The position numbers and the translations under genes were made by a program. Under the pieces are notes generated by a model, which saw only the letters and a program-made list of their open reading frames with translations, had not been told where the DNA came from and did no database searches. A stretch of DNA of 64,000 nucleotides from Parapedobacter tibetensis (GTDB lineage Bacteria > Bacteroidota > Bacteroidia > Sphingobacteriales > Sphingobacteriaceae): contig NZ_JAMXBE010000001.1 of NCBI RefSeq assembly GCF_024704835.1, positions 434,001 to 498,000 on the forward strand, written 5' to 3'. Shown piece by piece: positions 7,639 through 62,147 of the stretch (its first letter is position 1; every line of letters starts with the position of its first letter).

Positions 7639-7647
7639 TCCGTCACC

Positions 7648-8349: not shown

Positions 8350-8501
8350 CCGCGGATTTGCAGATTCGCAGATTTGCAATAAGCGAATTAACGAATTAAC
8401 GAATCAGCAAATTGGCGAATAAGCGAATTAACGAAACCCGACTTAGGAGGGTTCATTGATACCTTTAAAGGCAAACAGGAAATCAATAATTAGCAAAAAA
8501 A
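8350..8501 (+). repeat. Short-word repeat region between araD and araA
   Basis: The gap is built from recurring words. The 18-mer AATAAGCGAATTAACGAA occurs at 8378-8395 and again at 8418-8435, exactly 40 bp apart, preceded by GCGGATTTGC/GATTCGC/GATTTGC variants at 8352-8378. GATTCGC and GCGAAT are inverted partners, so the transcript could fold between araD and araA. The same words appear inside the fecR coding sequence at 16235-16265. It could tune araA expression or be an inert intergenic repeat; nothing decides. Confidence 0.55.
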
Positions 8502-25300: not shown

Positions 25301-25426
25301 ACCTTGGTTTGCGATGCCCCCGCTTCAAACTTCTCTCGATGCTGCCATGTGTTCGGGGTTGTGGGACGCATCAATATCCAAGTAATATTAGCCAATATGT
25401 TATCGTTAAAATAAAAGCGCCTTAGC

Positions 25427-25434
25427 TACATTTG
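25427..25434 (+). promoter_or_regulatory. -7 promoter element for the DUF5695-like gene
   Basis: TACATTTG matches the Bacteroidota -7 consensus TAnnTTTG and would start transcription near 25441, 15 nt before ATG 25456. Its position also argues against TTG 25432 as the start codon. No good -33 TTTG is present. The preceding gap 25301-25426 shows no clear terminator. Confidence 0.45.
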
Positions 25435-25455
25435 TTGTTCAGAAACATCACGATC

Positions 25456-41207: not shown

Positions 41208-41241
41208 ATAAAGAATAAAGTTAACTAATGGGCACCCTAAT

Positions 41242-42786: not shown

Positions 42787-42955
42787 AACTTGATAAATTG
42801 TTTATAATATTTGGTTGTATTGCATGGCTAAGATAGGTTTTTTAATCCTCACCGCCACACCTATTAATTAACAAATGCTGACTGTATATTATCTTATTTA
42901 TGGTCGTTTTCTTAAATTAATGGAATAATAGTCTGGTTTTCCCAAGATAATCGGA

Positions 42956-47132: not shown

Positions 47133-50093
47133 TTAGAAAACGAGATTCAATCCTACTGTATATGTACGGGTATTGGGGTACTTGTCACGATGGTCAATGC
47201 CCGGTGAAAACGTGAAGTTCTGGTTGCCGATTGTCCCCATATTTACGGCTTCGGGATCAATCCCTTTATATCCCGTAAACGTATATAAGTTAAGTCCCGA
47301 AACATAAACCCTGAGGTTACTGACTCCTTTAATCATATTGGGTCTGAAGGTATAGCCCAATGTCACATTATCGATTTTCAGGTAATCGGCATCTTCAATG
47401 TAGTGTGAAACATAGACCAGGTCATTGTCCAGCTGTTTGCCATATACTGGATCATACGCCGTTTTCAGGACATTATACGCCTTATTTACAGGGTTTTCAT
47501 AGTACAGTCGCTGCATGTTAAGCACCTGATGGCCAAAAGCCCCCCGGAAGTTCACTGCAAAATCAAACCGTTGAATATTGATGGAGTTATTCCAGCCCAA
47601 GTTATACTTCGGGATACCATTACCATAATATTGGCGGTCTTCCGGGGTGGCATCGCCGATCGGAATGGTTTCCCCATCTTTGTTTTCCACCAACCATTTG
47701 CCATTGTCATCTACGCCCACGCTCTTCAACACAAAAAACTGCCCGATAGGTCCGCCAACCCGAACACGGTGTGTGCTCACCTGTATCGGCTCGCCGGTAT
47801 GCCCCCAGTCAAAGAATTCCTGCGTCACGTTAAACTGGTCATTAGATAAATTCACCAACTCATTTTTATTGGTGGAAAAGGTCACATTCGTATTCCACTT
47901 TATGGTTTCCGTATCCACGGCTTTTACATTCACCAACGCTTCAAATCCCGAGTTTTTCATGGTTCCAGCGTTCAACATCATGCTACTGTATAAGTAGGGT
48001 GGTGTTGGCACGCCAAAGCTATACAGCAGATCTTTCACTGTGCGCGTATAGTAGTCAAGGGCACCTGTCAAGCGGTCGTTAAAGAATCCAAAATCCAACC
48101 CCACATTCCACTCCTCCTTTTTCTCCCAGCGCAGATCGGGATTGAAATTGCGTGCCGGCACAAAGCCCGGTACCCATTCGCCATTGATGAACGCACCTTG
48201 TGTGATATCGAAATTATAACTGGTTTGTGACTGGTAAGAGCTGGATGCGATGGTACCCGTCACCCCAAATCCCGCGCGCAGTTTAAAGTTAGATACAAAT
48301 TCCACTGGTTGCATAAACTCTTCATTGGCCAAGTTCCAACCCACCGAAAACGCTGGGAAGGTACCCCACTGGTAGTTTTCTCCAAAGGTGGATGAACCCT
48401 CCCGTCGTACGCTAGCCATTGCCATGTAGCGATTTTTCCATACGTAGTTAACCCTTCCAAAAAAACCAGCCAATTGCCATTTATTCTTGTCGCTTTCCAT
48501 CGTGGCCAGCCCCTCTCTCAGTCCCATACCCGTTTGCAACCGGTTATAGGTATAATCGTCATTGGGGAAATTGAAATTATATACGCTAAACGATTCCCCA
48601 ACGTTATGCTGCCAGCTGTATCCACCCAAAAGCGTCAGGTGATGGTCACCAAAATTCTTATTGTAATTGGCCGTGAGCTCCAGCAGGTTTTCTTCGTTTG
48701 AAGCGGTAGCGCGATTGGCTGTTCCGTTCAAGCTATTCTTCGTTGTATTCACGTGTTGAAAACTCGTGGCATCACCCGTAAGGTTGTTGCTCAACACACG
48801 CGACAGCAACATCTTCAAACTCAAATCGCCGATGGGTCGATAATCCAACGATCCGCTGAAACGGGTTTCACGGAATATCCGATCGTCTATCGTTTCATGA
48901 ATGATGCCCAATGGATTATCATACATATAGGCATTGCCTTCTTTCCAAGTCCCATCTGGATTCTTGATGGGTTCTGTCGGATTACGGATCATTGCCTGAC
49001 GCCAAGCCCAGCCACCAGCGCCCCCTTGTTTCGATGTCAAACTTTGGTTGATTACCTGCAAGTTAGTTCTAAGCTTACCATCAAACATATCGTGGTTGAG
49101 ATCAGCCCTGAAATTTAGCCGCTCTTGGCCCGATTTCAGGAAAATACCTTCCCAATTCCGGTAATTCAGCGAGCCCGTGAAATTAGTGCGCGAACTTCCG
49201 CCAAAAAACGTCAAATTATGGTTATGGCTTATGGGGTTTTGCAACACCTCATCGATCCAGTTTGTATTACCACTGGAATCTCCATAAGCATATCCCTCCG
49301 CAATCAACCGCCGATAGTCATTGGCATCCATCATCTCAGGCTTCCTGAAAATGGTCTGCACATTCGCATAGTTATTGTATTCGATGGAGGTACGGGGTTC
49401 GGCACTACGGTTTTTTCGGGTAGTAATCAGTACCACCCCTCCCGTTGCCCGTGTGCCGTAGATAGCCGCAGCGGAACCATCTTTGAGCACATCGACGGAT
49501 TCGATGTCCTCTGGAGCAACCGTAGCGATATTACCCGGAATACCGTCGATAAGCACCAGTGGGTTCTGGGAGCCATTGATTGAATTGAGGCCTCTCAGGT
49601 TAATCTGTGTGGTAGCGTTCGGGTCGCCATTCGGTGTGGTTATCCGAAGGCCGGCTACTTTACCTTGTATCAACTGAGCCGCATCGCGCACCGTACCTTT
49701 GGTAAAATCCTCGGCATTTACCCGAGCGATGGCGCTCGTCACCTCACCCTTTCGTTGCGTACCATACCCTACCACCACCACTTCTTCCAAGGTTTCCTCA
49801 CTCGGCATCAACCGGATGGTCAGTGTGGTTTGGTCAGTGAGATTAAACGTTTGTGATACAAATCCTAATGCGGTTGCTTCGAGGACGGCGGGCGACGCGT
49901 ATTGAATGGTAAAATCGCCCGACTCATTGGTGGACGTAATGCTTTGTGTATCCTTTATAGCAATGGATACCCCAGCCAACGGAATACCTGTTTCATCCAA
50001 TACTTTCCCCCGTAGGGTTATGCTTTGCTGGGCCATGCCCTCATAGCAGCATAGCATGCATAACATGAAATAATAGATTGGTAACTTTTTCAT
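47133..50093 (-). CDS. SusC/RagA TonB-dependent glycan receptor
   Basis: A 986-residue outer-membrane receptor. ATG 50093 (MKKLPIYYFMLCMLCCYEGMAQQ) is chosen because it begins the signal peptide; the ORF extends to 50153 with no sensible N-terminus. Domains: CarboxypepD_reg-like (about 25-105, LRGKVLDETGIPLAGVSIAIKDT), TonB-box region EEVVVVGYGTQRKGEVTSAI, plug (about 115-235, VDVLKDGSAAAIYGTRATGGVVLITTRKN) and C-terminal barrel ending TYTVGLNLVF. No STN domain, so it is not FecR-coupled. Its promoter carries the element shared with the GH127-type gene, 144 nt upstream of this ATG. Confidence 0.95.
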   Translation of the reverse strand: MKKLPIYYFMLCMLCCYEGMAQQSITLRGKVLDETGIPLAGVSIAIKDTQSITSTNESGDFTIQYASPAVLEATALGFVSQTFNLTDQTTLTIRLMPSEETLEEVVVVGYGTQRKGEVTSAIARVNAEDFTKGTVRDAAQLIQGKVAGLRITTPNGDPNATTQINLRGLNSINGSQNPLVLIDGIPGNIATVAPEDIESVDVLKDGSAAAIYGTRATGGVVLITTRKNRSAEPRTSIEYNNYANVQTIFRKPEMMDANDYRRLIAEGYAYGDSSGNTNWIDEVLQNPISHNHNLTFFGGSSRTNFTGSLNYRNWEGIFLKSGQERLNFRADLNHDMFDGKLRTNLQVINQSLTSKQGGAGGWAWRQAMIRNPTEPIKNPDGTWKEGNAYMYDNPLGIIHETIDDRIFRETRFSGSLDYRPIGDLSLKMLLSRVLSNNLTGDATSFQHVNTTKNSLNGTANRATASNEENLLELTANYNKNFGDHHLTLLGGYSWQHNVGESFSVYNFNFPNDDYTYNRLQTGMGLREGLATMESDKNKWQLAGFFGRVNYVWKNRYMAMASVRREGSSTFGENYQWGTFPAFSVGWNLANEEFMQPVEFVSNFKLRAGFGVTGTIASSSYQSQTSYNFDITQGAFINGEWVPGFVPARNFNPDLRWEKKEEWNVGLDFGFFNDRLTGALDYYTRTVKDLLYSFGVPTPPYLYSSMMLNAGTMKNSGFEALVNVKAVDTETIKWNTNVTFSTNKNELVNLSNDQFNVTQEFFDWGHTGEPIQVSTHRVRVGGPIGQFFVLKSVGVDDNGKWLVENKDGETIPIGDATPEDRQYYGNGIPKYNLGWNNSINIQRFDFAVNFRGAFGHQVLNMQRLYYENPVNKAYNVLKTAYDPVYGKQLDNDLVYVSHYIEDADYLKIDNVTLGYTFRPNMIKGVSNLRVYVSGLNLYTFTGYKGIDPEAVNMGTIGNQNFTFSPGIDHRDKYPNTRTYTVGLNLVF

Positions 50094-50209: not shown

Positions 50210-50258
50210 CAAATTTAGGCAGGCTCACGGAACCAGACTAACCACATATTGGCGGATG
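50210..50258 (-). promoter_or_regulatory. SusC promoter with shared 22-bp activator element
   Basis: Minus strand: CATCCGCCAATAT-GT-GGTTAGT (50258-50237), then 19 nt, then TAAATTTG (50217-50210), a TAnnTTTG -7 box. The same element with the same 19-nt spacing precedes the GH127-type gene at 62086-62038. Upstream, both copies also share a TGTTAA word. The element covers the place of a -33 box, as expected for an activator-dependent promoter. Confidence 0.7.
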
Positions 50259-50502
50259 TAAACCATAAATTAACATGGGTGGTTTTGCTGATGTAGGAAA
50301 GGTAAGCTGTGGTATGAATGGGGGTGCACGGTTTTCTGTTTTCTCGCGAAGGCGCAAAGTCGCCAAGCTTGCCTTTTTGACACAAGAGGGATTGGCTGGC
50401 GATCAAACACTGCTCCAATACGGACAATATACCTATACCACACTAATTGAAACGTGGCTAATACGTGGATAAAGGGTGGATAAACCGTGGCCTATCCCTA
50501 TC
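50259..50502. other. Non-coding stretch upstream of the SusC promoter
   Basis: No gene is seen. Around 50340-50375 the sequence TTTTCTCGCGAAGGCGCAAAGTCGCCAAGC contains repeated GCGAAGGCGCAAAG-like words common in intergenic repeats. The region separates the HlyD-like remnant from the SusC promoter. Confidence 0.4.
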
Positions 50503-50658
50503 TTAATACCCACTCAACACCAACCGGATATTCCTCATTAACCGTTGCAGCAACGAGGCGTCTCCCGTAATGATCTCAGCGGTTCCCAGCATCCCTACGG
50601 TCAGTTGGATGTATTTAGTCGAAAGATGCTTTTTGTAATATGCTTTCTCTATTCTATG
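50503..50658 (-). pseudogene. 3' remnant of an HlyD-family membrane fusion protein gene
   Basis: Reading minus from 50640 gives YYKKHLSTKYIQLTVGMLG and onward GMLGTAEIITGDASLLQRL, then MRNIRLVLSGY and a TAA at 50503-50505. This is the C-terminal strand and helix of HlyD/bacteriocin-secretion membrane fusion proteins (pattern GMxGTAEIITxxxxLLxRL). The frame is closed upstream by TAA at 50659-50661 and has no start, and the remnant overlaps the stop of the DUF6055/DUF4859 gene. It is therefore a leftover 3' end whose body was lost, probably when the present locus arrived. Confidence 0.8.
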
Positions 50659-52526
50659 TTAACATTGAATACAAACGTAGCCTGAACCGTGCTACCCGAT
50701 TCGTATTCATAGACCAATGCCTGCTTGATTATGTAAGTTGTTCCGGCTGTTGTTTGACCGGGGTATTGCCCGATGGAGAACATAAAATTAGATTCATTGT
50801 ATTCCGAGAAAACCCTTGCCTCGCTTCCCCAATTGACGACGTCGCCATTGGCATCAAACCAATGGCCATAACCATTGGCGGTGGCGGTGGCATTGAGGGC
50901 CCCATTGCTTTCCACGGCATAAAACTGGATACTGCTGCCCAACAGCTCCGCTATTTGGCTGGGCTGGAGCACAAAGGCCGTTGCTAATTGGCTCTGGCTG
51001 ACACTCACTGACGCACCGGTATAATTCGCCGCATCAAACGGGAAACTAACGTCATACGTAAACGTGACATCCTGCGGCTCATCGTCCTCATCAAAGGAAA
51101 GGTAGCCCACCACGTTCGTATTAGTCACCTTGATTTTGTATGGCCATTGCTCATCGTTGGTTTCATCATCGTCCCAAGGGTGCGGTGCATAGGTGGTGGG
51201 GGCACCGGTGACGATAAACCACAGCTTGCTGCAATTTTGCGGCACGGTGAATGGTACGTTATTATTGGTGCCACTCATCATATTGCCATACACGCGGGTG
51301 CCATTTTCCAGCAATGCGATATAACCATGGCGCCACCCCGCCCTACTGGGATTGCTTATCGGGTTAAAACCTGCTTCATTGACCAATCCGGTAAAGGCAA
51401 TGGAGACTTCCGTTCCTGCTGCGGGTACTTCCAGTGGGATGACATTATACCCCGTGGTTCCAGGGCAACGGTCGTACGTCACCCGCAAGCTCCCGTCCGT
51501 AAGCGCATCGAATTTATAGGTATGCACACCAATGTAGTTTTGTCCAATGCTCCGGATGGCGTCCAAATCCCACGTCGCCAATTTGCTGGCGGCATCATAG
51601 ATTTCGTCATTCAATTGTGCATTGGAAATACCCGTGATGCGCATGTAAGCCTGCATCGGGTCTTCGGGTTGCTGGGCTTCCCGCCAAATCCTTCCCACGA
51701 TATCGATGCCATGCTTATCCGCCCAGTAATGGTGGATGAAATAATTGGCATAGCGGTACCACTCGTGGATTTGATGCCGATGGCAGTTTTGGGTATAGAC
51801 CGAGAAATGGTGGGACGCAAAATTTTCCTGGGGATAGCTTTGGTAAGCCTGCCACTGGGCGGTCTGTTCCCAAAACCCATTACCCCCGTTGCCGCCGAAT
51901 CCGTAACGGAAGCCATGGGCACTACCCAAGTCGCAACGTACCTGATACTGGAAACTGTGCCCGATCTCGTGGGCAATGGTAGCGCCTACTGGCTGGGCGG
52001 TATTCGGACTGATCCACAGGGCCCCGATAACATCGTCATATCCCGCACCGAACGCCATCCATTCCGTGGTGTAATGCAAGAAAATCATCATTTTATACTG
52101 GTCGAGCTTTGACTGTCCCACACCCCTTTCGGCAAACTTGAGCGTGTCCACATTCAGGGCATAGAACCCTTCGGCCTTTTCGAGTAAATCATCGATATCC
52201 ACGCGATAGGCCGAAGGCACACCTTCCGTATTGGGATCATGGTTGCCATAACCCGCGCCCCAAAACACGATGAAATGGTCGGATTGTCGGCTCCGGTGAT
52301 AGCTCCATATACTGGTGCTGTCGTCAAAGTCCATGTTTTGGAATTCCTGTGGGATGTAGATGGCCAGGGTGTCTTCCAATGTTTCTTCCAGAGGGGTCTT
52401 GGGGCCCATATTCGTTTCCTTACAGGACATAAAGAACAGTAAAGAAGCCATGGCAGTTATGACTGTAAATAAAAATAAATTTAATATGCCGGCAGCATAT
52501 GACTTGTTGTAGCGTATTGTTTCCAT
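50649..52526 (-). CDS. Lipoprotein with DUF6055-like HExxH domain and C-terminal DUF4859
   Basis: A 625-residue lipoprotein. ATG 52526 is preferred to GTG 52547; the lipobox is FFMSC (Cys35). The N-terminal half (about 60-390) contains HFIVFWGAGYGNHDP and the gluzincin-like motif IAHEIGHSFQYQ (His186, Glu187, His190), followed by WEQTAQWQAYQSYP and YANYFIHHYWADKHG, matching my memory of DUF6055, a zinc-peptidase-like family. The last 135 residues are a DUF4859 domain (FTYDVSFPFDAANYTGASVS to the end), about 70 percent identical to the one in the FAS1 gene two genes upstream. It is probably surface-exposed; glycoprotein-directed proteolysis or glycan binding is plausible. Confidence 0.75.
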   Translation of the reverse strand: METIRYNKSYAAGILNLFLFTVITAMASLLFFMSCKETNMGPKTPLEETLEDTLAIYIPQEFQNMDFDDSTSIWSYHRSRQSDHFIVFWGAGYGNHDPNTEGVPSAYRVDIDDLLEKAEGFYALNVDTLKFAERGVGQSKLDQYKMMIFLHYTTEWMAFGAGYDDVIGALWISPNTAQPVGATIAHEIGHSFQYQVRCDLGSAHGFRYGFGGNGGNGFWEQTAQWQAYQSYPQENFASHHFSVYTQNCHRHQIHEWYRYANYFIHHYWADKHGIDIVGRIWREAQQPEDPMQAYMRITGISNAQLNDEIYDAASKLATWDLDAIRSIGQNYIGVHTYKFDALTDGSLRVTYDRCPGTTGYNVIPLEVPAAGTEVSIAFTGLVNEAGFNPISNPSRAGWRHGYIALLENGTRVYGNMMSGTNNNVPFTVPQNCSKLWFIVTGAPTTYAPHPWDDDETNDEQWPYKIKVTNTNVVGYLSFDEDDEPQDVTFTYDVSFPFDAANYTGASVSVSQSQLATAFVLQPSQIAELLGSSIQFYAVESNGALNATATANGYGHWFDANGDVVNWGSEARVFSEYNESNFMFSIGQYPGQTTAGTTYIIKQALVYEYESGSTVQATFVFNVNIE

Positions 52527-52568
52527 GGTGGATATATTTGTTTTCACATTATAGCAGCATATATTCTT

Positions 52569-53546
52569 TTATAAGGGTTTCCTGACCACATTTTTCAACC
52601 GGTAGGTAACGGTATAAGTACCACTCAAAAAATAGGTAATGGTACTTACCGGATTCAGGTTTCTGCCTATATCCGTTGCATTACCTACCACGCGGTAGTA
52701 GGTGATGCCATCATTCCAAGTAGCGTTCGCAACATTGATCTGCTTAAGCAGCGGATAATTCAGCCCTGTAAACGGATATTGATATTCGATGGACGTATCG
52801 GTCACTTCCTCAGAAAAGTAAGGCGACCAATTCGAAAACGTGGGTCTATCGCCTCTTTTGATGATCTCACCTGCTTGGGGATTGAACGGTCGGCCGTTTT
52901 TATCTACCCATTTGAAAATAATCTTGTTCTCCGTGGTCGCTTCCCGCTCGACCACAATTTCAAGGGATTGGTCAGCACCCACAAAGTTATCCTCAATCCC
53001 GAAGGTTGAAGTGGTCATTGCTTGATACGAAATCGAATGCGTAGCTGCCGACCGTAAGCGGATATCCAAGGCCTCATTGATTACTCGGGCGCCCCTGCTA
53101 TTCGTTACTTCAACATCAATCGTATACAAGCCGGTATCGATATTGGTGGTGGCCCTCGTCAAGCCTACCCTGCCACCTATTTCATTGATCATGATGGCGG
53201 GCGATTTACCTACGTCAATCTTCTCCATTACCTTTTCCAAGGTGTTATCGTCATTCGTAATCTCTGCCAAATAAACAGGCACGTCATACTCCTGCAAAAA
53301 TTCGGTGGCTTCACGCCCTGTTTTTTTATCGCGTATACTGAGGAGCTTGACCTGAACCGGAGAAGTACTCCCATCCAAAATAAGGGATCCAGTATAGAGC
53401 ACCTGACCTTGCGTAGCTTCCAACGTCCGCAAATTATAGGTGATATAGTCACTGATATAGCCGGATTCGACTTTGGAACAACTTCCGACAGCCGCCACTA
53501 AACCTATTAGGCTTATGAGCGGAAACAACTTATTTATCTTCTGCAT
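52569..53546 (-). CDS. DUF5007-like lipoprotein
   Basis: A 325-residue lipoprotein (lipobox AVGSC, Cys23) with SKVESGYISDYITYNLRTLEATQGQVLYTGSLILDGSTSPVQVKLLSIRDKKTGREATEFLQ, then beta-rich repeats and a C-terminal SGTYTVTYRLKNVVRKPL. This resembles DUF5007, found beside SusC/SusD and fasciclin genes in Bacteroidota; the assignment is from memory. No catalytic motif. Spacing to neighbours on both sides is small (16 and 42 bp), so it belongs to the same transcript. Likely a surface glycan-binding or scaffold subunit. Confidence 0.7.
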   Translation of the reverse strand: MQKINKLFPLISLIGLVAAVGSCSKVESGYISDYITYNLRTLEATQGQVLYTGSLILDGSTSPVQVKLLSIRDKKTGREATEFLQEYDVPVYLAEITNDDNTLEKVMEKIDVGKSPAIMINEIGGRVGLTRATTNIDTGLYTIDVEVTNSRGARVINEALDIRLRSAATHSISYQAMTTSTFGIEDNFVGADQSLEIVVEREATTENKIIFKWVDKNGRPFNPQAGEIIKRGDRPTFSNWSPYFSEEVTDTSIEYQYPFTGLNYPLLKQINVANATWNDGITYYRVVGNATDIGRNLNPVSTITYFLSGTYTVTYRLKNVVRKPL

Positions 53547-53562
53547 ATGCTTTGCTTTTTAT

Positions 53563-54681
53563 TCATTCTATCGTTATGTTAAACACAAACGTCACCCGGA
53601 TCATCTCAAAACCCGCCTCATACGCCATGGCCTGTTTGATGGTATATTCATTCCCCGCTGCAGTCTGCCCGGGAAATTGCCCGATATTGAAGGTGAAGTT
53701 GGCTTCATCATACTCGCAAAATAACCGGGCATCGGCACCCCAATTGATCACATTTCCATTGGCATCAAACCAATGTCCGTAACCGTTTGCTGTTGTGGTG
53801 GCATTGAGTTCTCCGTTACTTTCCACGGCGTAGAACTTAATGGTATTACCCAAAAGGTCGGGTATTTCACTGGCTTCGAGCCCAAAGGCCGTGGCCAACT
53901 CATTTTGGTCAATGCTTACCGATGCACCCGAATAGTTGGCGGCATCAAAAGGAAAGGCTACGTCGTAGTTCCATGTCGAGTTCTGGACACTAAGCGGCGG
54001 ATAAAAATCGGCTATAAAATTATGGCTATTGGCCAACACATTGATCACCGTTCCGGTGGAGGTAATGATACCTGAAGTCTGACACCTAATCCGCAAATCG
54101 GTCTCGTCACCCTCAGGCGTTGTGACCACCCCATCGCTATTTACCTGGTCTTGTTCGCCCCGGATCTGTACATAATATAGGTAATAGATGGGTTGGAAGG
54201 ACCATTGGCCTGGTGGCTGAAGTTGCCTATGATAGCTAAAACCCGGAATTCCAGAGGCATTGGCTATCGGGGTATACTGCGTATTGGCGGTCGTGGGGCC
54301 ATGGTTCCCGTCGTTGTAAATATAAGTCCGCAGTGAATCGACGTTAACCGCTTCCAGCATTTGTGCCAATGAATAGGTGGCATTTTCATCCCTAATCAAT
54401 AATTCCGCCCATTTCCGGTTGTAAAACCGCTTGATGGAATAGTTGGTTGGAGCAAAGAAAGTCGATGCATTGTTAATCTCATCTTTCAGTCCAAAATGGT
54501 CAATCACAATGATGAGGGTATCGAACAGCCCTGCAGGGTGCTGCGCCAGATAATCGTAAGTGGTTAGGTTTACCCTGGCCTCGTGCACGCCCTCATCCGT
54601 CAGGTAGCTTTCCTTCTTGCAGGAATACAAGCATAGCATTCCTGATAGGGAAATTAATAAAATAAAAAATAGCTTTCTCAT
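53563..54681 (-). CDS. Fasciclin (FAS1) lipoprotein with C-terminal DUF4859
   Basis: A 372-residue lipoprotein (lipobox CLYSC, Cys21). A FAS1-like N-terminal domain (about 35-230) shows TTYDYLAQHPAGLFDTLIIVIDHFGLKDEINNASTFFAPTNYSIKRF, the typical fasciclin sequence with TFFAPTN. Residues about 238-372 are a DUF4859 domain (YDVAFPFDAANYSGASVSIDQNELATAFGLE; ANGYGHWFDANGNVINWG) very close to that of the DUF6055 protein. FAS1 proteins mediate adhesion or glycan binding. It starts 21 bp after the SusD stop, as part of the SusC-SusD-FAS1-DUF5007-DUF6055 run. Confidence 0.83.
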   Translation of the reverse strand: MRKLFFILLISLSGMLCLYSCKKESYLTDEGVHEARVNLTTYDYLAQHPAGLFDTLIIVIDHFGLKDEINNASTFFAPTNYSIKRFYNRKWAELLIRDENATYSLAQMLEAVNVDSLRTYIYNDGNHGPTTANTQYTPIANASGIPGFSYHRQLQPPGQWSFQPIYYLYYVQIRGEQDQVNSDGVVTTPEGDETDLRIRCQTSGIITSTGTVINVLANSHNFIADFYPPLSVQNSTWNYDVAFPFDAANYSGASVSIDQNELATAFGLEASEIPDLLGNTIKFYAVESNGELNATTTANGYGHWFDANGNVINWGADARLFCEYDEANFTFNIGQFPGQTAAGNEYTIKQAMAYEAGFEMIRVTFVFNITIE

Positions 54682-54702
54682 ATCATTCGTTCAAATGGTC
54701 AA

Positions 54703-56178
54703 TTACATATTCACAGTACTCCAGTAAGGGGTCTGCCGTAGTTGTTTGTTTAGGCTGAGCAAGCTGGGGTCAAACGGCCAATAATGCTTTCCAGCTTCGA
54801 ACTGACTGGAAGTCATCTTAGCTCCGAACTTCATGGTTCCGTTGTACCGTGCCAAACGAACCAAGTCGAAAAAACGATGTCCCTCCAGGAACAATTCTCT
54901 TCCGCGCTCCTCGATAATGGCTTCAAACAGGTCGCCGCTGTTGTCCCAAACGTCCAGCCCTGCCTTTTCGCGCACTTCATTGAGTATGATCACGGCTGCG
55001 GATTCATTACCGGTAGCCGCCAGTGCTTCGGCTTCCAGTAGCCGGATATCCGCATAGCGGAAAATGATGATGTTGTTTTTGAAGATGGCTATGGCAGATC
55101 CCGTCTCATTGGTATAGGTCACGTTGGCATATTTCGTGCAAATGACCGCCTCCGTACTCAACGTTCGGTTGAAAACGCTCCGCAGACGCAGGTCATCATC
55201 TCCATACAGCTCACCCATCCGGGTATGGGAAATCACCAATCCCGGCAATCCCGTCCTTCCCCGCAGATACGGCGCCATCAGCGTGAAATTACCAATGCCC
55301 TGGATCGTACCTTCGTTGGCCGCGTTTTGGGAAACCTCGAATATCCCTTCTGTCGACTGTCCCTTGTAGATGCCGTGATAGCTGGCGCTGTCTCTTGATA
55401 CATACGTGTAGTTTCCTTGCTGCGCTACCATGTTGGCGGCCGTAGCACAGGAGGCATAATCCCCTTGCCAGGCATACACATGCGCTGCCAACGCATACAA
55501 TGCCCCTAAATTGGCACGAATAGCCCGGTCACGGGCTGAAGCATAGCCCCAGCTCAGCAGGCCACTAGCCGCTTCAATATCCGAAAGACATTGGGCCAGG
55601 ATTTGACTGGTGGTTGCAGCAGGAAAATCTTCGGCATCCACCACATTCACGGAACGGGTCACCAAGGGAACCCCTCCCCATACCCTCGCCATATAAAAAT
55701 AGGTGAACGCCCGCATGTAGTATGCCTCGCCAAGGTATCGACCCCGTACTTCTTCGCTCGAAAAAGCATCGGCTGGCATCTCCGCTACATAGTGCAACAC
55801 CCTATTGGCCTGGTCAATGACCCGATAGAATAGATCATATCGTCGCAGGCGAAGCATAGGATTCCACGTTTCCGATGCAGGGACTGCAAGTGACCAAGTC
55901 ATATTGGCGACAAAGCTATAAGGCCAAGCGGTTACTGTACTGAATTCATCCGAAGGCAAATCGCCATAAGCATAATGCGTCATGCCATCGGAATAATTCA
56001 AGGCTTGCCGCAACAGGGCATAGGTGGCTGTCACGGCCGAATTGGCATCGGCTTCCGTCTTCCAAAAACTATCATCAATCGGATAGCTTTGAGGCTCCAA
56101 ATCCAAAAAATCACTGCACGAGCTACATAAGTATAAGGTAGCTATACAGCTATATAGTGCTAATATTTTTCTTATCAT
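54703..56178 (-). CDS. SusD/RagB-family substrate-binding lipoprotein
   Basis: A 491-residue surface lipoprotein (lipobox LCSSC, Cys21) with mature start SDFLDLEPQSYPIDDSFWKTEADANSAVTATYALLRQ, the helical signature YLGEAYYMRAFTYFYMARVWGGVPLVTRSVNVVDAEDFPAAT, and the C-terminal RYADIRLLEAEALAATGNESAAVIILNEVREKAGL and EERGRELFLEGHRFFDLVRLARYNG. All are standard SusD. It starts 11 bp after the SusC stop. First binding subunit of the five-gene cluster whose other members are FAS1, DUF5007 and DUF6055 lipoproteins. Confidence 0.95.
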   Translation of the reverse strand: MIRKILALYSCIATLYLCSSCSDFLDLEPQSYPIDDSFWKTEADANSAVTATYALLRQALNYSDGMTHYAYGDLPSDEFSTVTAWPYSFVANMTWSLAVPASETWNPMLRLRRYDLFYRVIDQANRVLHYVAEMPADAFSSEEVRGRYLGEAYYMRAFTYFYMARVWGGVPLVTRSVNVVDAEDFPAATTSQILAQCLSDIEAASGLLSWGYASARDRAIRANLGALYALAAHVYAWQGDYASCATAANMVAQQGNYTYVSRDSASYHGIYKGQSTEGIFEVSQNAANEGTIQGIGNFTLMAPYLRGRTGLPGLVISHTRMGELYGDDDLRLRSVFNRTLSTEAVICTKYANVTYTNETGSAIAIFKNNIIIFRYADIRLLEAEALAATGNESAAVIILNEVREKAGLDVWDNSGDLFEAIIEERGRELFLEGHRFFDLVRLARYNGTMKFGAKMTSSQFEAGKHYWPFDPSLLSLNKQLRQTPYWSTVNM

Positions 56179-56189
56179 GGTCTGTGGTA

Positions 56190-59100
56190 TTAAAATGATA
56201 AATCGACTCCAAACGTGAATTTCTTTGGTATGGGGTATCCGTTCCCTGTGGAATAGCCATTTGGCTGGACCGCTTCGGGGTCTGGTGTATCAGACCAAGA
56301 GCGGATATAGAGGTTATCCAGCATGCCGAAAAATCGAATAGATCGGCATTTCAGATTGTCGACCCATTGCTGTGGCAGGTTATAACCCAATTGGACGTTT
56401 TTCAGCCTCACGAAGCTGGCATTCTCTACAAAATAGCTTTGCGCGATATGCCAATTATCCACCGTATTGGAAAATAAGTTTGGGTAACGAGTCTGGTCGC
56501 CCGGCTGTAACCAAAAATCGGAAACGCTGAAGTCTCCTGCAATAGCAGAATTGCTTCCCCAGGTCCCAAATAAATTGGAAGATCCGGCATCTTGAAGCCG
56601 GTCCGACAGGTACCCGTTCCAGAGGTTCCTTCCCTCAATGAACGTAATCAATACCTGCAGGGTAAACCCTTTGTAGGCAAAATTATTGGTCAACCCGCCG
56701 GTAATCCTGGGATTGGGATCGCCCATCGACACCTTATCCAAGTAGTCAATGATGTAATCCCCATTCACATCCACGGGGTCTGGATCACCCGCCTTATAAA
56801 ATTGCCCCGTCAGTCCGCTTCGTAACCGGTCGCCAGTAAGGGGGTCAATGGGCACATCGGCATCGGCAGCAAAAACACCGTTCACCTGCCAGACCTGGAA
56901 GGGGAACATCGGTTGCCCCACATTGAGGGTACGCTCCATCCAAGGCGGCCCTACACGGAACTCCCGGCCGTCATTGGGCAACTTGACCACCTTATTTTTA
57001 TTGTACGCGATGTTGAAATTGGTATACCATTGGAAAGCCGACTGGGGGTTCATGTTCACGGAATTGATGGTTAACTCCACCCCGCTATTGCGGATATCCA
57101 CAAAATTGCTGATAATGTTCGAAAAGCCTGTAATGATTGGGGCCGGCGCTTCGAATACCATGCTTCTAGACTCCCGCATGTAATAATCTGCGGTGATCGT
57201 CAATCTGTCCCGGATAAAATTGGCATCCAGGCCGATATTGAACTGCGGTGTACGTTCCCATTTGATATTAGCCGCTGATGCCGGGTTGTTGTAATTCGGA
57301 TAGGTTACTAAGGTGCCATTGTATGTGGAACCAGACACATTGTCCCCATTGTCCAATCGGGAGCCTACATAACCGGCGTTGAAGCCCAAGTTGGTATATT
57401 GGGCATAATAACTGCCCGGGTCAAGCCCGGTGAGGCCGTAGCTCGACCTGACTTTAAGAAAGGAAACTACATCAGTCAACGGTTCGAAAAACGGCTCTTC
57501 GGACAAAACCCATCCAGCGGAGATAGCTGGGAATATACCCCATCGATTATCGCGGCTGTAACGTGAGGATGCATCCTGCCGATAACTTGCCTGCAGCAAA
57601 TAACGTCCTTTATAGTCATAACCCAGGCGGCCAAACAACGACACCCTTGCCCGTTCTTCCAAGCTTGTCCAACCATATAAATCCGGCCCAGATGGAATCC
57701 CAGATATAGTCTTGATGATGGTGCTGTTATCGCTCCATCCTTGCTGGTATCGATCATTTCTATTGTTCTTTTCCATACCGTATCCCAATACGCCTGACAG
57801 GTTATGGTTTTCTTTCAAGGTTTTATAATAATTGAAGAAACTCTCCAATTCCCAGCGTTGGTTTTGGTATACCCAACTTTGGGCACGGTTACGACCATTC
57901 CCTGTAATCAGTCCGGGCTGGAAAAGATCGCGGGTATTGTTATTAATGTTGTAGGAGAACTGCGTGCGGAACGACAACTCCGGCACAAACAGCTGCTTGA
58001 TGGTCACCGCGGTATTCCCATTGATGCTCGTCGTCTTGTCATCGTCCATCAAATCGTCGTACCGACCGGTGTGAACAGCCCGTTCCGCATCGGTTATTTG
58101 CCAGAAAGAAGATGGGAATCCCCATGTCGTAAAGGGGAATTTACTCCCAAAAACACCTTCGCCTGAACCATGTTTAGCCTTCGTCAGCCCTGCAAACAAG
58201 TTGGTTTCAATCTGGACATTCTTGGTCGGATTGGCTTGCAGGAAAATACGTGGTGTGACATTGTCATTTTCATAACCAATCATTACGCCTTCTTCATAAT
58301 ACCGTTGGACGGAGAGCCTATAGATGAAGGTTTCCGTGGATGCTCCAACACTCGCGTTGATGTTATTCACGCGGGCTGCACGCAGAAACATGCCCTGCCA
58401 ATCGGTATTGTTATTGAAAGCTGTATTCAAGCTATCCGTCAGCATCATGCTGATTTGGTCATTATTAAACCAATTGTATTGGCCTCCTCCATACAGCAAT
58501 GCCATTTTGAGGCGCCGTTCTTCCGCCCCTACTTGGATGGGTTTCATGGCAGGCCTATTGGCCACACCCATATAAGCCGAAACACGGACTTCCGGCTTAG
58601 CACCCATTGGCCGTTTGGTCTTTACGATAATCACCCCATTGGCTGCACGTGCCCCATAGATTGCTGATGCCGACGCATCTTTCAGAATATCCACGGATTC
58701 GATATCGTTGGGGTTGATGGATTGCAAGGGGTTAGCCCCATAAGCCGACCTGAAGTCATTCACGTCATAGATAATGTTATCGATCACATATAGGGGAGCA
58801 GTGATGGCATTATCGGCTAATCTAACGTTGCTGCTTCCGCGGATGTTGACCAAGTTGTTTGTTCCTGGCTCACCCGAAGTACTCAACACGGTCATTCCCG
58901 CTACACGGCCTTGTAACATCGCATCAAAAGTGGCATAGGGTGTGTTTTCAAACTCCTTGCCTTTTACCGAGGCAATGGCACCTGTTGTTTTCCGCCGCTG
59001 GATGTCTTGGTAGCCAATCACCACCACTTCATCGAGACCACTGAGGCTTTCTTGCAACACAATCACGTACGAAGGTTGGTCGGTTATCTTAATCGATATT

Positions 59101-59327
59101 CGCTCAAACCCAACCAATGAAACTTCAATTACCTCTCCAGTTGACGCTTGAATATTAAATACGCCTCTATCGTCGGTCTGGGTTACCCGGTTTGTTCCTT
59201 TAACCTGTACCGTCGCGGACGATAAGGGCTCACCTCGGTCATCCTTCACCTCACCGGTCTTGATCTGCGCCATAAGCGCAAACGGTATTAGGATGACACA
59301 TAATAAAATAGTGAATTTTCTCTCCAT
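56190..59327 (-). CDS. SusC/RagA TonB-dependent glycan receptor
   Basis: A 1045-residue outer-membrane receptor: signal peptide (MERKFTILLCVILIPFALMAQ), CarboxypepD_reg-like domain (about 22-100, TGEVKDDRGEPLSSATVQVKG), TonB-box region LDEVVVIGYQDIQRRKTTGAIASV, plug (about 105-240, ESVDILKDASASAIYGARAANGVIIVKTKRP) and a C-terminal barrel ending KFTFGVDLSF. No STN domain. Heads the SusC-SusD-FAS1-DUF5007-DUF6055 operon. The 357-bp upstream gap has no clear -7 box; a weak relative of the shared activator element lies at 59505-59523. Confidence 0.95.
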   Translation of the reverse strand: MERKFTILLCVILIPFALMAQIKTGEVKDDRGEPLSSATVQVKGTNRVTQTDDRGVFNIQASTGEVIEVSLVGFERISIKITDQPSYVIVLQESLSGLDEVVVIGYQDIQRRKTTGAIASVKGKEFENTPYATFDAMLQGRVAGMTVLSTSGEPGTNNLVNIRGSSNVRLADNAITAPLYVIDNIIYDVNDFRSAYGANPLQSINPNDIESVDILKDASASAIYGARAANGVIIVKTKRPMGAKPEVRVSAYMGVANRPAMKPIQVGAEERRLKMALLYGGGQYNWFNNDQISMMLTDSLNTAFNNNTDWQGMFLRAARVNNINASVGASTETFIYRLSVQRYYEEGVMIGYENDNVTPRIFLQANPTKNVQIETNLFAGLTKAKHGSGEGVFGSKFPFTTWGFPSSFWQITDAERAVHTGRYDDLMDDDKTTSINGNTAVTIKQLFVPELSFRTQFSYNINNNTRDLFQPGLITGNGRNRAQSWVYQNQRWELESFFNYYKTLKENHNLSGVLGYGMEKNNRNDRYQQGWSDNSTIIKTISGIPSGPDLYGWTSLEERARVSLFGRLGYDYKGRYLLQASYRQDASSRYSRDNRWGIFPAISAGWVLSEEPFFEPLTDVVSFLKVRSSYGLTGLDPGSYYAQYTNLGFNAGYVGSRLDNGDNVSGSTYNGTLVTYPNYNNPASAANIKWERTPQFNIGLDANFIRDRLTITADYYMRESRSMVFEAPAPIITGFSNIISNFVDIRNSGVELTINSVNMNPQSAFQWYTNFNIAYNKNKVVKLPNDGREFRVGPPWMERTLNVGQPMFPFQVWQVNGVFAADADVPIDPLTGDRLRSGLTGQFYKAGDPDPVDVNGDYIIDYLDKVSMGDPNPRITGGLTNNFAYKGFTLQVLITFIEGRNLWNGYLSDRLQDAGSSNLFGTWGSNSAIAGDFSVSDFWLQPGDQTRYPNLFSNTVDNWHIAQSYFVENASFVRLKNVQLGYNLPQQWVDNLKCRSIRFFGMLDNLYIRSWSDTPDPEAVQPNGYSTGNGYPIPKKFTFGVDLSF

Positions 59328-59684
59328 ATTGCTTAATTTAGTTAGTACATAAATGATCGGTTAATATTCATATAATGTCTATTCGACAATTATTGTATTA
59401 TAGTGCTTGATCAACAGCATTCTCGCGATAAAAACCTCCGCTTATGCTAGATTTTAATTGGTCGTTAGTTTAAGTTGCTAAATTGCGTCGTTTTGTTTCA
59501 CCATCCTAAACATATTTTCGCCAGTGATAACCAAAAATTGACGTAATAATTAAGCCTTTGGCAAGACCAGATGGGCAAATGGTTAATGATTGAATTCGGA
59601 ATCGCTGAATGCTAATAATGGATTATGAAGTATCGCGTTTTATATTTAAAGTAGCTATTACCCATTGAATCAATTACCAAAAAG
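59328..59684 (-). promoter_or_regulatory. Upstream region of the second SusC operon
   Basis: A 357-bp AT-rich gap after the GH127-type gene. CTAAACATATTTTCGCC near 59507-59523 partly resembles the plus-strand form of the shared element (CTAAC...ATATTGGCGG) but lacks the strict core and a -7 box at the right distance. No terminator for the upstream gene is apparent, so read-through from it is possible. Confidence 0.3.
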
Positions 59685-62006
59685 CTACCGCTTCACCGTC
59701 CTCGCTGCAAAGAGTGGCCCTCCGCGACTACCGGTATGGGGTGCGATTTTCACGTTAATGTGTTGCTTGTCTTTCGTCAGGTCTTCCGGGATATCGTATT
59801 GGATGGAAAGGAACGATCCGTCCTTGATACCACTGATATTCTGCGTGGCTATGGTCTGCCCATCTACTTGGATATCGAACGTCTTGCTTCCTGTATATCC
59901 ACCCCAATATTCAAACACCAGTGCCATGGGTTGCGCTGGGAGGACTTTCATGTCAAAGCCAAACCATCCGCCACGCTCGGCCTGCCGGGCTTTTCGATCC
60001 TGCATCTGCACAACATGCGCATCCCCCCCTTCGTAATGGTGATCACGCTCCGGCTGCATCTCACCCAGTTGGAAAAAATCATAGGTGATGGATTCGATCC
60101 GTGCATATGCTGTCTTCTCGGCTTCATAGGTAGCCTGTAATTCCTTCCACTCTTGTTGGTTGAACACATCCCAATATACTGAATACCGCTTGTCATGTGT
60201 CACATAAAAAGGCTTCATCTCCACGTCCCGCGGTTTGCCCACACCTTGGGTACTAAAGGTGTTCGGGCCGTCAGCAGTCTCTATCCAAGCTTTGGGATTA
60301 CGATCTTCCGTAAAAAATACCGGTACGAAATCCGAATCTTTTGCCTTGGGGTCGTCTACTTCGCCCAACTCTCCGGCCATCACCACCGGTCCATATAACA
60401 CCGCAAGCCGCGTATGGTCATCGGGCATTTCCTCGGTACGTAACGTGAAGGGCAATTCCACTTCTACATGATCACCGTCCTTCCATGTACGCGATAACGT
60501 GACGAAACTTCCCGGTGTTTCCCCATGTTGGTACTCCTCACCATTCACCCGTATTGTTATACCTTGCTCTGCCCAATAGGGATAACGGATTTTTACGTCG
60601 AAGCGCTGCGATTCTTCCAAATTAAAGGTAAACGCTGTTCCCTGCTGTTGGGGATAAGCTGTTTCCTGACGTAACGTTAGTCCCTTATCCTCCCATGAAA
60701 GTTCGGACGCCATATACTGGGTGATGTAGAGTTCGTCATCATTATGGTAATAGATATGCCCGGCATATTTGGCGTGATTTTCCATCCCTGTACCTACACA
60801 GCAGGTAAAACCAAACGGATTCTGGTAATGCTTATGGCCGCCCATCTCCAGGGAAAGGTTGTAAATGACGTGACCAGTCAACGGATGCTGCGACGCTAGA
60901 ATCTGGTTGAATAACGCCCGTTCGTAGTAATCCGCAACTTCGGCGCTTGGCTCCCATTGGAAAATCCTATCCGAGAGCTTCAGCATGTTGTATACATTGC
61001 AGGTCTCCGTGGTTTCATCGCTCAGCCGCTTACTGAGCTTATCCGGTTGCCCGAAATACTCGTGGTTGGCATTTCCTCCCGTTACATAAGAGTGATGGTG
61101 AACTACCCGATCCCAAAAGAATTTTGCAGCCTGGTAGTCTTCTTCGTTTCCAGTGGCCTGATAACGCTTCACCAACCCAATTACTTTGGGTATCTGCGTA
61201 TTGGCATGTAGCCCGGCCAGTGAATCCCGGCCCTGGACCAAGTTATCCAACACAGCCTTGTGATAGAAGGCGCCAGCCATATCGAGGTATTTTTTATCTT
61301 GCGTATGGTTATATAAATCCACCAATGACTCATTCATCCCGCCATGCTCACAATGCAATACCTGCTGCATCTGCTCGTCCGTCAAGGGTTCGATGACCGT
61401 ACCTATCCAATCGGCAAAGCGGGTGGCTACGGTAAGCGCCTTTTCGTTGTCCAACAACGTATATGCATCATGGAGACCTGCCAGTACTTTATGATGCGTA
61501 TAGAACGGTGCCCAGATGCCATTAAGGTCAAAACCCTGTGAGCGGATATCCCCCTTGGCTATTTCGTTCTCAAAAACCTCCTTGCCATTGTCAAACGCAC
61601 CGAGGTAGCCGTCGCCGTCTGCTTCTTGGCATAAGGCGAGTTCATCCACGATGTAGTTGGCACGGATCCTAAACTCCTCGTTTCCCGTACTTAAGTACAT
61701 CAATGCACAAGCTGATAGGTAATGCCCCAAGCTATGTCCAGCCAGTGATTGAGCCTCCCAGCCCCCGTAATGTTCCGCCTTGGGTTCCAATCCCGCATTC
61801 TTCCGAAACCGCGCCAGAAAACGGTCGGGCTCATAGGCCAATAGGATTCTCTCATTCAGTTCGGTGGCATCCTTAAAGGGGCCGTCAAGTAACTTCACTG
61901 CCGTCAGTGGGAAGCTTGTGACTTCTTTCAGGTTTTCATTCGTGTTTGAACAAGCTGCGGCCACCACCGCAGCCGCTACGATTATCATTTTAGTCAATAT
62001 GTTCAT
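59685..62006 (-). CDS. GH127/GH146-type beta-L-arabinofuranosidase lipoprotein (DUF1680 clan)
   Basis: A 773-residue lipoprotein (AAVVAAAC, Cys19). An (alpha/alpha)6 barrel (about 60-440) is followed by beta-sandwich domains. The zinc-thiolate active site of cysteine glycosidases in this clan is visible: Glu334-x-Cys336 in TTETCNVYNMLKLSD and the cysteine pair Cys402-Cys403 in FTCCVGTGMENHAKY. These match the Glu-x-Cys...Cys-Cys pattern of the known Bifidobacterium enzyme, with the second cysteine type acting as nucleophile; Glu316 (NHEYFG) is a candidate acid/base. Known members remove beta-L-arabinofuranose from hydroxyproline-linked arabinans or from plant arabinan. Its promoter shares an element with the SusC at 50.1 kb. 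GH127 and GH146 cannot be separated by eye. Confidence 0.88.
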   Translation of the reverse strand: MNILTKMIIVAAAVVAAACSNTNENLKEVTSFPLTAVKLLDGPFKDATELNERILLAYEPDRFLARFRKNAGLEPKAEHYGGWEAQSLAGHSLGHYLSACALMYLSTGNEEFRIRANYIVDELALCQEADGDGYLGAFDNGKEVFENEIAKGDIRSQGFDLNGIWAPFYTHHKVLAGLHDAYTLLDNEKALTVATRFADWIGTVIEPLTDEQMQQVLHCEHGGMNESLVDLYNHTQDKKYLDMAGAFYHKAVLDNLVQGRDSLAGLHANTQIPKVIGLVKRYQATGNEEDYQAAKFFWDRVVHHHSYVTGGNANHEYFGQPDKLSKRLSDETTETCNVYNMLKLSDRIFQWEPSAEVADYYERALFNQILASQHPLTGHVIYNLSLEMGGHKHYQNPFGFTCCVGTGMENHAKYAGHIYYHNDDELYITQYMASELSWEDKGLTLRQETAYPQQQGTAFTFNLEESQRFDVKIRYPYWAEQGITIRVNGEEYQHGETPGSFVTLSRTWKDGDHVEVELPFTLRTEEMPDDHTRLAVLYGPVVMAGELGEVDDPKAKDSDFVPVFFTEDRNPKAWIETADGPNTFSTQGVGKPRDVEMKPFYVTHDKRYSVYWDVFNQQEWKELQATYEAEKTAYARIESITYDFFQLGEMQPERDHHYEGGDAHVVQMQDRKARQAERGGWFGFDMKVLPAQPMALVFEYWGGYTGSKTFDIQVDGQTIATQNISGIKDGSFLSIQYDIPEDLTKDKQHINVKIAPHTGSRGGPLFAARTVKR

Positions 62007-62037
62007 AGTAATAGCAATCTTGCCTACCCTTAATATA

Positions 62038-62086
62038 CAAAGGTAGTACGGCCAACACGTTGAAACTAACCGTATATTGGCGGATG
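62038..62086 (-). promoter_or_regulatory. GH127-type gene promoter with shared 22-bp activator element
   Basis: Minus strand: CATCCGCCAATAT-AC-GGTTAGT (62086-62065), 19 nt, then TACCTTTG (62045-62038), a TAnnTTTG -7 box. Transcription would start near 62032, about 26 nt before the ATG. Element and spacing equal those before the SusC gene at 50210-50258. Confidence 0.72.
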
Positions 62087-62147
62087 CAGTTCGGAATTTA
62101 ACAGAGAGTTAATCCGTAGCCCCAAGAGGAAAGGAATTACCTTCGGT

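Follow-up and report, generated by a model that had tools for sequence, protein, structure and literature searches.

How do two promoters 12 kb apart, one before a SusC/SusD pair and the other before a gene of the GH127/GH146 type, come to share an element, and which protein would act on it? The question is raised by a 64,000-nucleotide stretch of the genome of Parapedobacter tibetensis (the window; G000:C1:434001-498000, G000 being this genome of 5,982,706 bp). A preliminary description, made from the letters of the window, had reported a 22-bp element at identical spacing from the -7 box of both promoters. We found that this element contains the second half-site of a direct repeat with a 21-bp period, that the repeat recurs in related species, and that it also precedes a trans-4-hydroxyproline (Hyp) operon, next to an AraC-family gene whose product is the probable regulator of the window sites. 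The genomes that we examined are related, so the p-values given below overstate independence.

Two promoters share an element and its spacing

Copy 1 of the element (minus strand, 50258-50237) reads CATCCGCCAATAT-GT-GGTTAGT and copy 2 (minus strand, 62086-62065) reads CATCCGCCAATAT-AC-GGTTAGT. Exactly 19 nt separate each copy from its box, TAAATTTG at promoter 1 and TACCTTTG at promoter 2 (Table 1), and the two elements, their coordinates and their spacing to TAnnTTTG are exact in the sequence, as first reported. Both promoters thus carry the TAnnTTTG -7 box of Bacteroidetes primary-sigma promoters, as this consensus is given in PMC7366714 and PMC9723704. Two matches with at most 3 mismatches occur in the window against 0.01 expected, and 0 of 100 shuffles had two. 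The genome-wide search that the preliminary description had proposed returned only two copies of the 18-bp core in 5.98 Mb at up to 1 mismatch; at up to 2 mismatches, the four matches in this genome equal the four of a reversed-pattern control. Over 200 genomes, the core had 20 matches: 2 in this genome, 2 in Parapedobacter pyrenivorans (G004), the nearest named relative found (GH127-type protein 78% identical), and 16 outside the genus, none of which (0/16) had TAnnTTTG at 20 nt. An alignment of orthologous promoters, likewise proposed there, showed the operator to be conserved, for promoter 1 in G004 (C1 668459-668524) and G005 (C16 213517-213582) and for promoter 2 in G004 (C1 688940-689005). 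A search of Rfam gave no match at the gathering threshold.

A TGTTAA word had also been noted further upstream. It is present in both promoters at identical spacing (50275-50270 and 62103-62098), but it is not a separate word, since it opens the first half-site of the 21-bp-period direct repeat.

No TTTG was found near -33 at either window promoter, where the end of the second half-site, GGTTAG, fills the position; a -33 motif is not found in all Bacteroidetes, as stated in PMC7366714. The coincidence of GGTTAG with -33, which follows from the placement of the box at -12 to -5 in PMC9723704, could mean that the element is simply the -33 box and upstream sequence of a strong ordinary promoter, shared through recent duplication. 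We regard this as very improbable, because GGTTAG is not enriched before TAnnTTTG (20 occurrences of GGTTAG-N8-34-TAnnTTTG genome-wide versus 52 for the reversed pattern), because conservation is absent from the 20 nt that separate repeat and box (alignment columns 38-57), which argues against a recent copy of the whole promoter, and because the sites precede nonhomologous genes. GGTTAG as a general -33 box is ruled out by the same count.

The element belongs to a 38-bp tandem repeat

The full operator consists of NGTTAAWTTNYGGTTTR (half-site A), 4 bp, NGYCAATATNYGGTTAG (half-site B), 20 nt, and then the -7 box. The half-sites are 17 bp each, in direct orientation with a 21-bp period, and cover 38 bp in all; with the Bacteroidetes box at -12 to -5 (PMC9723704), the repeat spans about -70 to -33. 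In a leave-one-out offset scan of 14 sites with the half-site B matrix, the maximum fell exactly at -21, with a mean score of 1.7 there versus -20.0 (standard deviation, 2.6) at other offsets (z 8.3); the runner-up offset, -32, reached -10.3 and the best inverted offset -13.7. Eight sites from G005, G003, and G043 that were found without the upstream half also had their maximum at -21. The element is very probably the promoter-proximal part of a larger operator of the AraC type, as predicted from this layout.

GTT-like words recur in the operator at ~10.5-bp phasing, and a LytTR pair is encoded at G000:C1:513613-517907, so that a response regulator of the OmpR/PhoB type or a LytTR regulator might be imagined on four GTTA-like boxes with spacings of 11, 10, and 11 bp. 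We consider this highly unlikely: self-similarity is 1.7 at 21 bp versus -8.2, -12.6, and -10.3 at 10, 11, and 32 bp, a result that would be expected of two unlike sub-boxes per half-site, which is the AraC pattern.

All six sites that were found without requiring a box have one at 20 nt (two in the window, three in G004, one in G005). The G004 site at 678146 was chosen from matches with 6 mismatches with the box in view, and six more sites came from a pattern that fixes the spacing. Among 74 other repeats scoring >16, the box lay at 20 nt in 18, at 21 nt in 3, and at 19 nt in 2, with none within 40 nt in 51 and no other spacing in the set, a count in which 20 nt is favored since the box is part of the models R1 and R2 (see below), with which several loci were fetched. 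The Hyp promoters, except that of G058, were fetched via protein similarity and are free of this bias. The strict spacing had been taken to mean that one activator contacts polymerase at both promoters. One kind of DNA-binding activator placed against the polymerase site is a probable reading, which the recurrence of the architecture in related species supports.

The element had been called undescribed. Its kind is described, in that predicted motifs of hybrid two-component regulators (HTCS) in Bacteroides are direct repeats with a mean spacing of 21 bp, as reported in PMC3878776. For this particular element, no description turned up in topic searches, in which the motif letters themselves were not searched for.

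The repeat recurs at a hydroxyproline operon next to an AraC-family gene

The preliminary description had noted that the window holds no hybrid two-component regulator and had named no factor. An HTCS is not required; the gene of a one-component AraC-family protein, G000:C1:582909-583784, makes a better candidate and lies ~85 kb past the window, directly upstream of the Hyp operon. Its protein matches PF12833 (74.6 bits), PF00165 (54.4), AraC_binding (28.5), and Cupin_2 (27.7), all above cutoffs. Catabolism of trans-4-hydroxyproline proceeds, as outlined in PMC6608401, through an epimerase, a D-Hyp dehydrogenase, a DHDPS-type deaminase, and an aldehyde dehydrogenase. The epimerase of this genome (Pro_racemase) passes the NCBIfam cutoff for 4-hydroxyproline epimerase (586 versus 376 bits); no specific NCBIfam cutoff was reached by the aldehyde dehydrogenase, DHDPS-family, and FAD-oxidase proteins, and the assignment of these three steps therefore rests on family and context.

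Orthologues of the AraC protein (>260 bits) occur in 11 of the 16 genomes tested. In all 11, the gene stands beside Hyp catabolic genes, at most 4 kb from the Pro_racemase gene. Pro_racemase is also encoded in a twelfth genome, G014, where the adjoining AraC gene is a more distant one. In 10 genomes, the AraC gene directly precedes the DHDPS-family gene, and the gap contains a 21-bp-period repeat in 10/10 (in G004, TGTTAATATATGCATAGCATT GATTAATTAGCGGGTGG), with the box at 20 nt in nine and at 21 nt in one (G002). Half-sites trained on 13 SusC/GH127-type sites only place nine Hyp promoters at ranks 11 to 51 of 1286 TAnnTTTG boxes, and a shift by 1 to 6 nt abolishes their score (from a mean of 15.6 to -16.5 or less). 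A half-site such as GGTTAAAATATGGTTAT often lies upstream of the AraC gene itself: the best half-site within 250 bp upstream had a median score of 15.6 (n = 11) versus 7.4 in a set of 35 further AraC genes (Mann-Whitney p 2.4e-5, kinship ignored), a difference that is weakened in that the controls were measured from the match start, which for several of them falls within the gene. This upstream half-site scores low in G043, G058, and G070. Together, these data make the AraC protein encoded at G000:C1:582909-583784 the probable cognate regulator of the SusC/GH127 sites.

Genes preceded by the operator in related species

One region of P. pyrenivorans has four promoters with the element, each 19 nt from the box when counted as in the window; they precede orthologues of SusC2, SusC1, and the GH127-type gene (names as in Table 1), plus a fourth SusC. 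Among 120 relatives, a pattern of half-site B plus the box with at most 2 mismatches gave many scattered matches, in 71 genomes (a reversed control also matched many), with good ones in SusC/peptidase loci of G005, G003, and G043; these matches were taken further in the genus, G043, and G021 only. The operator of the related species stands before genes for SusC, GH127-type, DUF885, and permease proteins, and the clusters also hold S9-peptidase genes.

We built two models, whose E-values are rough: R1, from 13 SusC/GH127-type sites, was scanned over 200 genomes, and R2, from the R1 sites plus nine Hyp sites, over 16. Four candidates were excluded from the model because they have no good half-site A (G004:C2:641536, G004:C2:693673, G000:C45:392207, and G021:C40:81005). 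Also outside the model are G004:C3:7798, G004:C3:203734, G005:C11:2531, and matches in G001, G002, G006, and G007, of which G002:C30:160167 was scored separately; the weak permease site G043:C54:24346 is in the 14-site offset scan but outside the 13-site model.

R1 recovered its 13 training sites at E <1e-8. The best match beyond them (G058:C44:116440, E 6.8e-5) is the promoter of a Hyp operon, with genes for DHDPS-family, aldehyde dehydrogenase, Pro_racemase, DAO, DUF885, permease, and S9 proteins and an AraC-family gene directly upstream. The second (G022:C117:113489, E 1.0e-4) precedes a SusC gene in a cluster that also holds DUF5695, S9, permease, and DUF885 genes. R1 matches at E ≤1.1e-4 come from seven genomes, all within the 45 of 200 that carry the AraC orthologue (2e-5, kinship ignored); within the genus, such matches occur in four of five genomes with the orthologue versus none of four without it (p 0.04).

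In this genome, the best R2 match outside the training set (C45:425633-425696, E 3.5e-4; box TACTTTTA, one letter off) precedes an aminopeptidase P and DPP-IV pair. The DUF885-permease-S9 unit of this genome (C1:508171) has a repeat upstream with the box at 20 nt and a poor distal half. In five genomes without the AraC orthologue, the best R2 E-values, 0.04 to 0.27, are noise; in G002 and G070, which both have it, the best values are only 0.014 and 0.016. R2 matches with E 0.002 to 0.01 also lie at G005:C14:410686, G067:C3:462039, and G003:C14:513892; the first (~410686) and the last of these are high-scoring 21-bp repeats without a -7 box or an evident link to the regulon. In G014, DHDPS, Pro_racemase, DAO, S9, and DUF885 genes are succeeded on the same strand, after a gap of 257 nt, by a SusC gene (product 52% identical to window SusC2) together with its SusD gene.

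In G005 (C16:187919-187984), a strong operator lies immediately before a GH97 gene, and the regulon of that species may thus take in a further glycosidase. The SusC2 orthologue of G005 (C16:213748-216695) is split into two frames and looks broken; its promoter keeps the operator. In another genus, a good repeat at G096:C2:544292 (rank 12/1286) has its box at 20 nt.

Which regulator acts at the SusC/GH127 sites

If an HTCS controlled the sites, their likeness to the Hyp promoters would reflect nothing but family-wide AraC recognition. The layout would suit such a protein: the direct repeats predicted as HTCS operators in Bacteroides have an average spacing of 21 bp, and that of HTCS_Man, described in PMC3878776, consists of two 16-bp sites separated by 5 bp. 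Two HTCS genes of this genome, moreover, are found at distances of 23 and 56 kb from the sites: G000:C1:519158-523282, for which HTH_18 was confirmed, and 424598-428689, which is 31% identical to the former. However, both adjoin other SusC/SusD-like genes, and the regions of the sites in G004 (C1:620-740 kb) and G005 (C16:125-255 kb) contain no HTCS-type gene (sensor, kinase, receiver, HTH_18) in their lists of open reading frames and no Y_Y_Y match. The sites also extend beyond glycan genes to Hyp and proline-peptidase genes, and we judge control by an HTCS unlikely.

Several observations weigh against the AraC neighbor of the Hyp operon as regulator of all these sites. The promoter-proximal half-site mostly ends in GGRTGG or GGAAGG in Hyp operons versus GGTTAG in the SusC/GH127 class, which would allow for a second family member as the regulator of the SusC/GH127 sites. 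The Hyp promoter of this genome scores only 11.6 (rank 36), below those of G003 to G005 and G058, and that of G043 scores 3.6; in the Hyp operons of G070 and G014, the genes are ordered differently and the repeats are weaker (8.5 with the box at 20 nt and 18.8 with the box at 19 nt). G002 has the AraC gene and a Hyp operon and yet no R1 match at E ≤0.5, 163 of 200 genomes have some R1 match at that level, which is noise, and the third non-training R1 match, G004:C2:641536 (E 3.4e-4), lacks a good half-site A and regulon-like neighbors. Searches in more distant genera mostly failed to show the promoter match. Of 21 further AraC-orthologue loci outside Parapedobacter (21 of 54 such places, with 1.5 kb on either side), only two (G076 and G116) have a high-scoring box-anchored repeat, which does not differ from 49 controls (p 0.66), among them the G014 AraC gene beside its Hyp operon; a repeat without the box is weakly enriched at these loci (p 0.019). 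Outside the genus, the arrangement of regulator and promoter may differ, or the motif may have drifted. Finally, similar 21-bp repeats lie close to the genes of control AraC paralogues, which makes the motif type family-wide, and the exact pairing of protein and site is an assignment that we infer.

These points leave some room for a different one-component AraC-family member at the SusC/GH127 sites, that is, for two paralogues with related operators, and the difference in half-site B between the site classes fits such a pair. A concrete case would be the 294-amino-acid AraC paralogue encoded beside orthologues of window genes 40341-45337, which has its own 21-bp repeat upstream. We think a second regulator improbable, because the Hyp promoter of G058 scores 36.2 with the SusC/GH127 matrix, within the training range of 35.7 to 53.2, and because R1 matches at E ≤1.1e-4 are confined to genomes with the AraC gene of the Hyp operon. 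The 294-amino-acid paralogue was dropped as a candidate, since it is also encoded in genus members without strong sites (G002, G006, G007, and G008); it was not found in G001.

A proposed regulon for hydroxyproline-rich glycoproteins

From the repeat with its period, spacing, and conservation, its presence at the Hyp operon, and the gene families that it precedes, we propose the following mechanism, of which binding, ligand, activation, and substrate are predictions. The activator would be the one-component AraC-family protein encoded beside the Hyp operon, with a cupin domain and HTH_18. Hydroxyproline or an early metabolite would bind the cupin domain and switch the protein on. Two DNA-binding domains would then occupy the 21-bp direct repeat on one helix face, at about -70 to -33, the promoter-proximal one touching polymerase where a -33 box would be. 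Such class II activation by the AraC-family neighbor of the Hyp operon is, in our estimate, the most likely mechanism, and somewhat better than an even bet. It would extend to the neighboring operon (DHDPS-family deaminase, aldehyde dehydrogenase, 4-hydroxyproline epimerase, and FAD oxidoreductase), to the distant window units (both SusCD systems and the beta-L-arabinofuranosidase), and, elsewhere in the genome, to units with DUF885, DPP-IV/S9, aminopeptidase P, and permease genes. In this way, hydroxyproline-rich (extensin-like) plant glycoproteins would be taken up, deglycosylated, and digested in a coordinated manner.

The preliminary description had tied the SusCD pair to the GH127-type gene and both to beta-L-arabinofuranoside substrates. 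The tie between the two is supported and is refined by the links to Hyp catabolism and proline-specific peptidases, which make a hydroxyproline glycoprotein a likelier substrate than a plain beta-L-arabinofuranoside. Extensin is suggested by the co-occurrence with Hyp and proline-peptidase genes, together with the use of HypBA1 on extensin-type glycans (PMC6085000). The GH127-fold catalytic domain is present in the window enzyme (PF07944; 5opj). Against the substrate as proposed, its closest solved structure is not of the HypBA1 type, and 3wkw, which we take to be the HypBA1 structure, is a distant match (E 1e-12); the GH127 fold is also that of anhydrogalactosidases and of an aceric acid hydrolase, as listed in PMC5698469. 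For the Hyp-glycoprotein regulon as a whole, we see the chances as evenly balanced.

The likeness between two promoters can now be read as a predicted operator whose layout is defined, for which a candidate regulator is named, and whose regulon can be tested. It may or may not be, with equal probability in our view, that an AraC-family protein of Sphingobacteriaceae senses hydroxyproline or an early metabolite and controls an entire glycoprotein-utilization regulon, made up of SusCD, the beta-L-arabinofuranosidase, DUF885, proline-specific peptidases, an amino-acid permease, and the 4-hydroxyproline pathway. If so, a system of the polysaccharide-utilization type would be switched by the amino acid that anchors the glycan and not by a sugar, which would put glycan-type loci under a signal from the amino-acid side. 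Sugar removal, proline-specific peptide digestion, and Hyp catabolism would be switched on together for plant cell-wall glycoproteins, and the SusCD pairs and the DUF885, DUF6055, DUF4859, and DUF5695 genes would gain a substrate class, hydroxyproline-rich plant glycoproteins. Topic searches of the open-access literature turned up no paper on such a use of SusCD or on such a system in Bacteroidota.

Further copies and other genes of the window

Two further sites in the window, both missing from the preliminary description, accompany the two exact copies (Table 1). Promoter 3 has a degenerate box and is weak on its own (score 27.1; E 0.013 with R1 and 0.065 with R2); the promoters of SusC1 orthologues in G004 (678146) and G005 (194951) also carry the operator, with an exact box. 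In G004, a long near-perfect inverted repeat, TTAACATAGG...CCTATGTTAA (C1 ~678195-678250), abuts and overlaps the SusC1 operator upstream. Promoter 4 is marginal (rank 30/1286 boxes); box-anchored repeats also precede homologues of the DUF5695 protein, detected by BLAST, in G004 (rank 25), G022 (rank 17), and G057 (rank 31). Homologues of the three genes after SusD1 keep their order in G004 and G005.

Table 1. Promoters with the tandem repeat and associated genes in the window
Feature	Position	Strand	Details
Promoter 1	50210..50275	-	Half-site A 50275-50259, half-site B 50254-50238, 20 nt, -7 box TAAATTTG 50217-50210; precedes SusC2/SusD2
Promoter 2	62038..62103	-	Half-site A 62103-62087, half-site B 62082-62066, 20 nt, -7 box TACCTTTG 62045-62038; precedes GH127/GH146-type gene
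Promoter 3	59478..59543	-	Half-sites 59543-59527, 59522-59506, 20 nt, degenerate box CAATTTAG 59485-59478; precedes SusC1/SusD1
Promoter 4 (marginal)	25369..25434	+	Half-sites 25369-25385, 25390-25406, 20 nt, box TACATTTG 25427-25434; precedes DUF5695 gene
SusC2, SusC/RagA family TonB-linked outer-membrane protein	47133..50093	-	Pfam; NCBIfam TIGR04056 715.7 bits
SusD2 lipoprotein	45498..47102	-	PF07980/PF14322
SusC1	56190..59327	-	NCBIfam TIGR04056 710.5 bits
SusD1-like protein	54703..56178	-	NanU/SusD exception models, below cutoffs; follows SusC1
Three genes after SusD1	50649..54681	-	53563-54681 DUF4859; 52569-53546 no Pfam family; 50649-52547 DUF6055 + DUF4859
GH127-fold beta-L-arabinofuranosidase-type enzyme	59685..62006	-	PF07944 425.5 bits; nearest structure 5opj (E 2e-138), then 8k7x beta-L-arabinofuranosidase
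DUF5695 protein	25432..28206	+	PF18951 1317.7 bits; true start probably ATG downstream of 25432
L-arabinose catabolism	5965..10001	+	Ribulokinase 5965-7638, AraD 7648-8349, L-arabinose isomerase 8502-10001; NCBIfam above cutoff

Just before the L-arabinose genes, the gene at 5047-5739 (plus strand) has a below-cutoff match to an NrtR-type repressor and is possibly AraR; a weak 21-bp repeat (score 8.4, box at 19 nt) lies upstream of it, at 4842. A 1171-amino-acid protein encoded at 35561-39076 combines ThuA, DUF7133, and a plastocyanin-like copper domain, and its homologues adjoin the same genes in G003, G004, and G005. A different 21-bp direct repeat, AGATAATATACAGTCAGCATT TGTTAATTAATAGGTGT, is found at 42857-42894 (minus strand), before the MFS gene at 41242-42786. 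Nearly the same repeat occurs near the gene of the 294-amino-acid AraC paralogue in G004, G005, G008, and G002, and the orthologue of that gene in this genome is G000:C6:7049-7912. The repeat at 42857-42894 is probably the operator of this paralogue.

Comparison with known systems

By layout, the operator resembles the Bacteroides HTCS operators described in PMC3878776: a tandem direct repeat of ~21 bp before SusC/SusD operons, with a DNA-binding domain of the AraC type. Unlike in those systems, the candidate here is an AraC protein of the one-component kind, encoded next to genes of amino-acid catabolism, and the predicted regulon includes peptidase and Hyp genes. LhpR of Pseudomonas aeruginosa, an AraC-family protein that activates hydroxyproline genes (as cited in PMC6608401), is similar in family and gene context, with 4-hydroxyproline epimerase, deaminase, and dehydrogenase genes under its control; in contrast, the regulon predicted here adds outer-membrane SusCD, glycosidase, and proline-specific peptidase genes. 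The hypBA1-hypBA2-hypAA genes of Bifidobacterium longum and Xanthomonas act on hydroxyproline-linked arabinofuranosides of extensin, as described in PMC6085000, and share with our system an enzyme of the GH127-fold beta-L-arabinofuranosidase type. They differ from it in that the nearest structures here are 5opj and 8k7x and in that phylum and regulation are other.

At the E. coli araBAD promoter, araI1-I2 is likewise a pair of 17-bp half-sites in direct orientation with a spacing of 21 bp, and the half-site nearer to the promoter element touches it. The operator described here differs from araI1-I2 in its sequence, in the sigma factor of its promoter, and in its predicted ligand.

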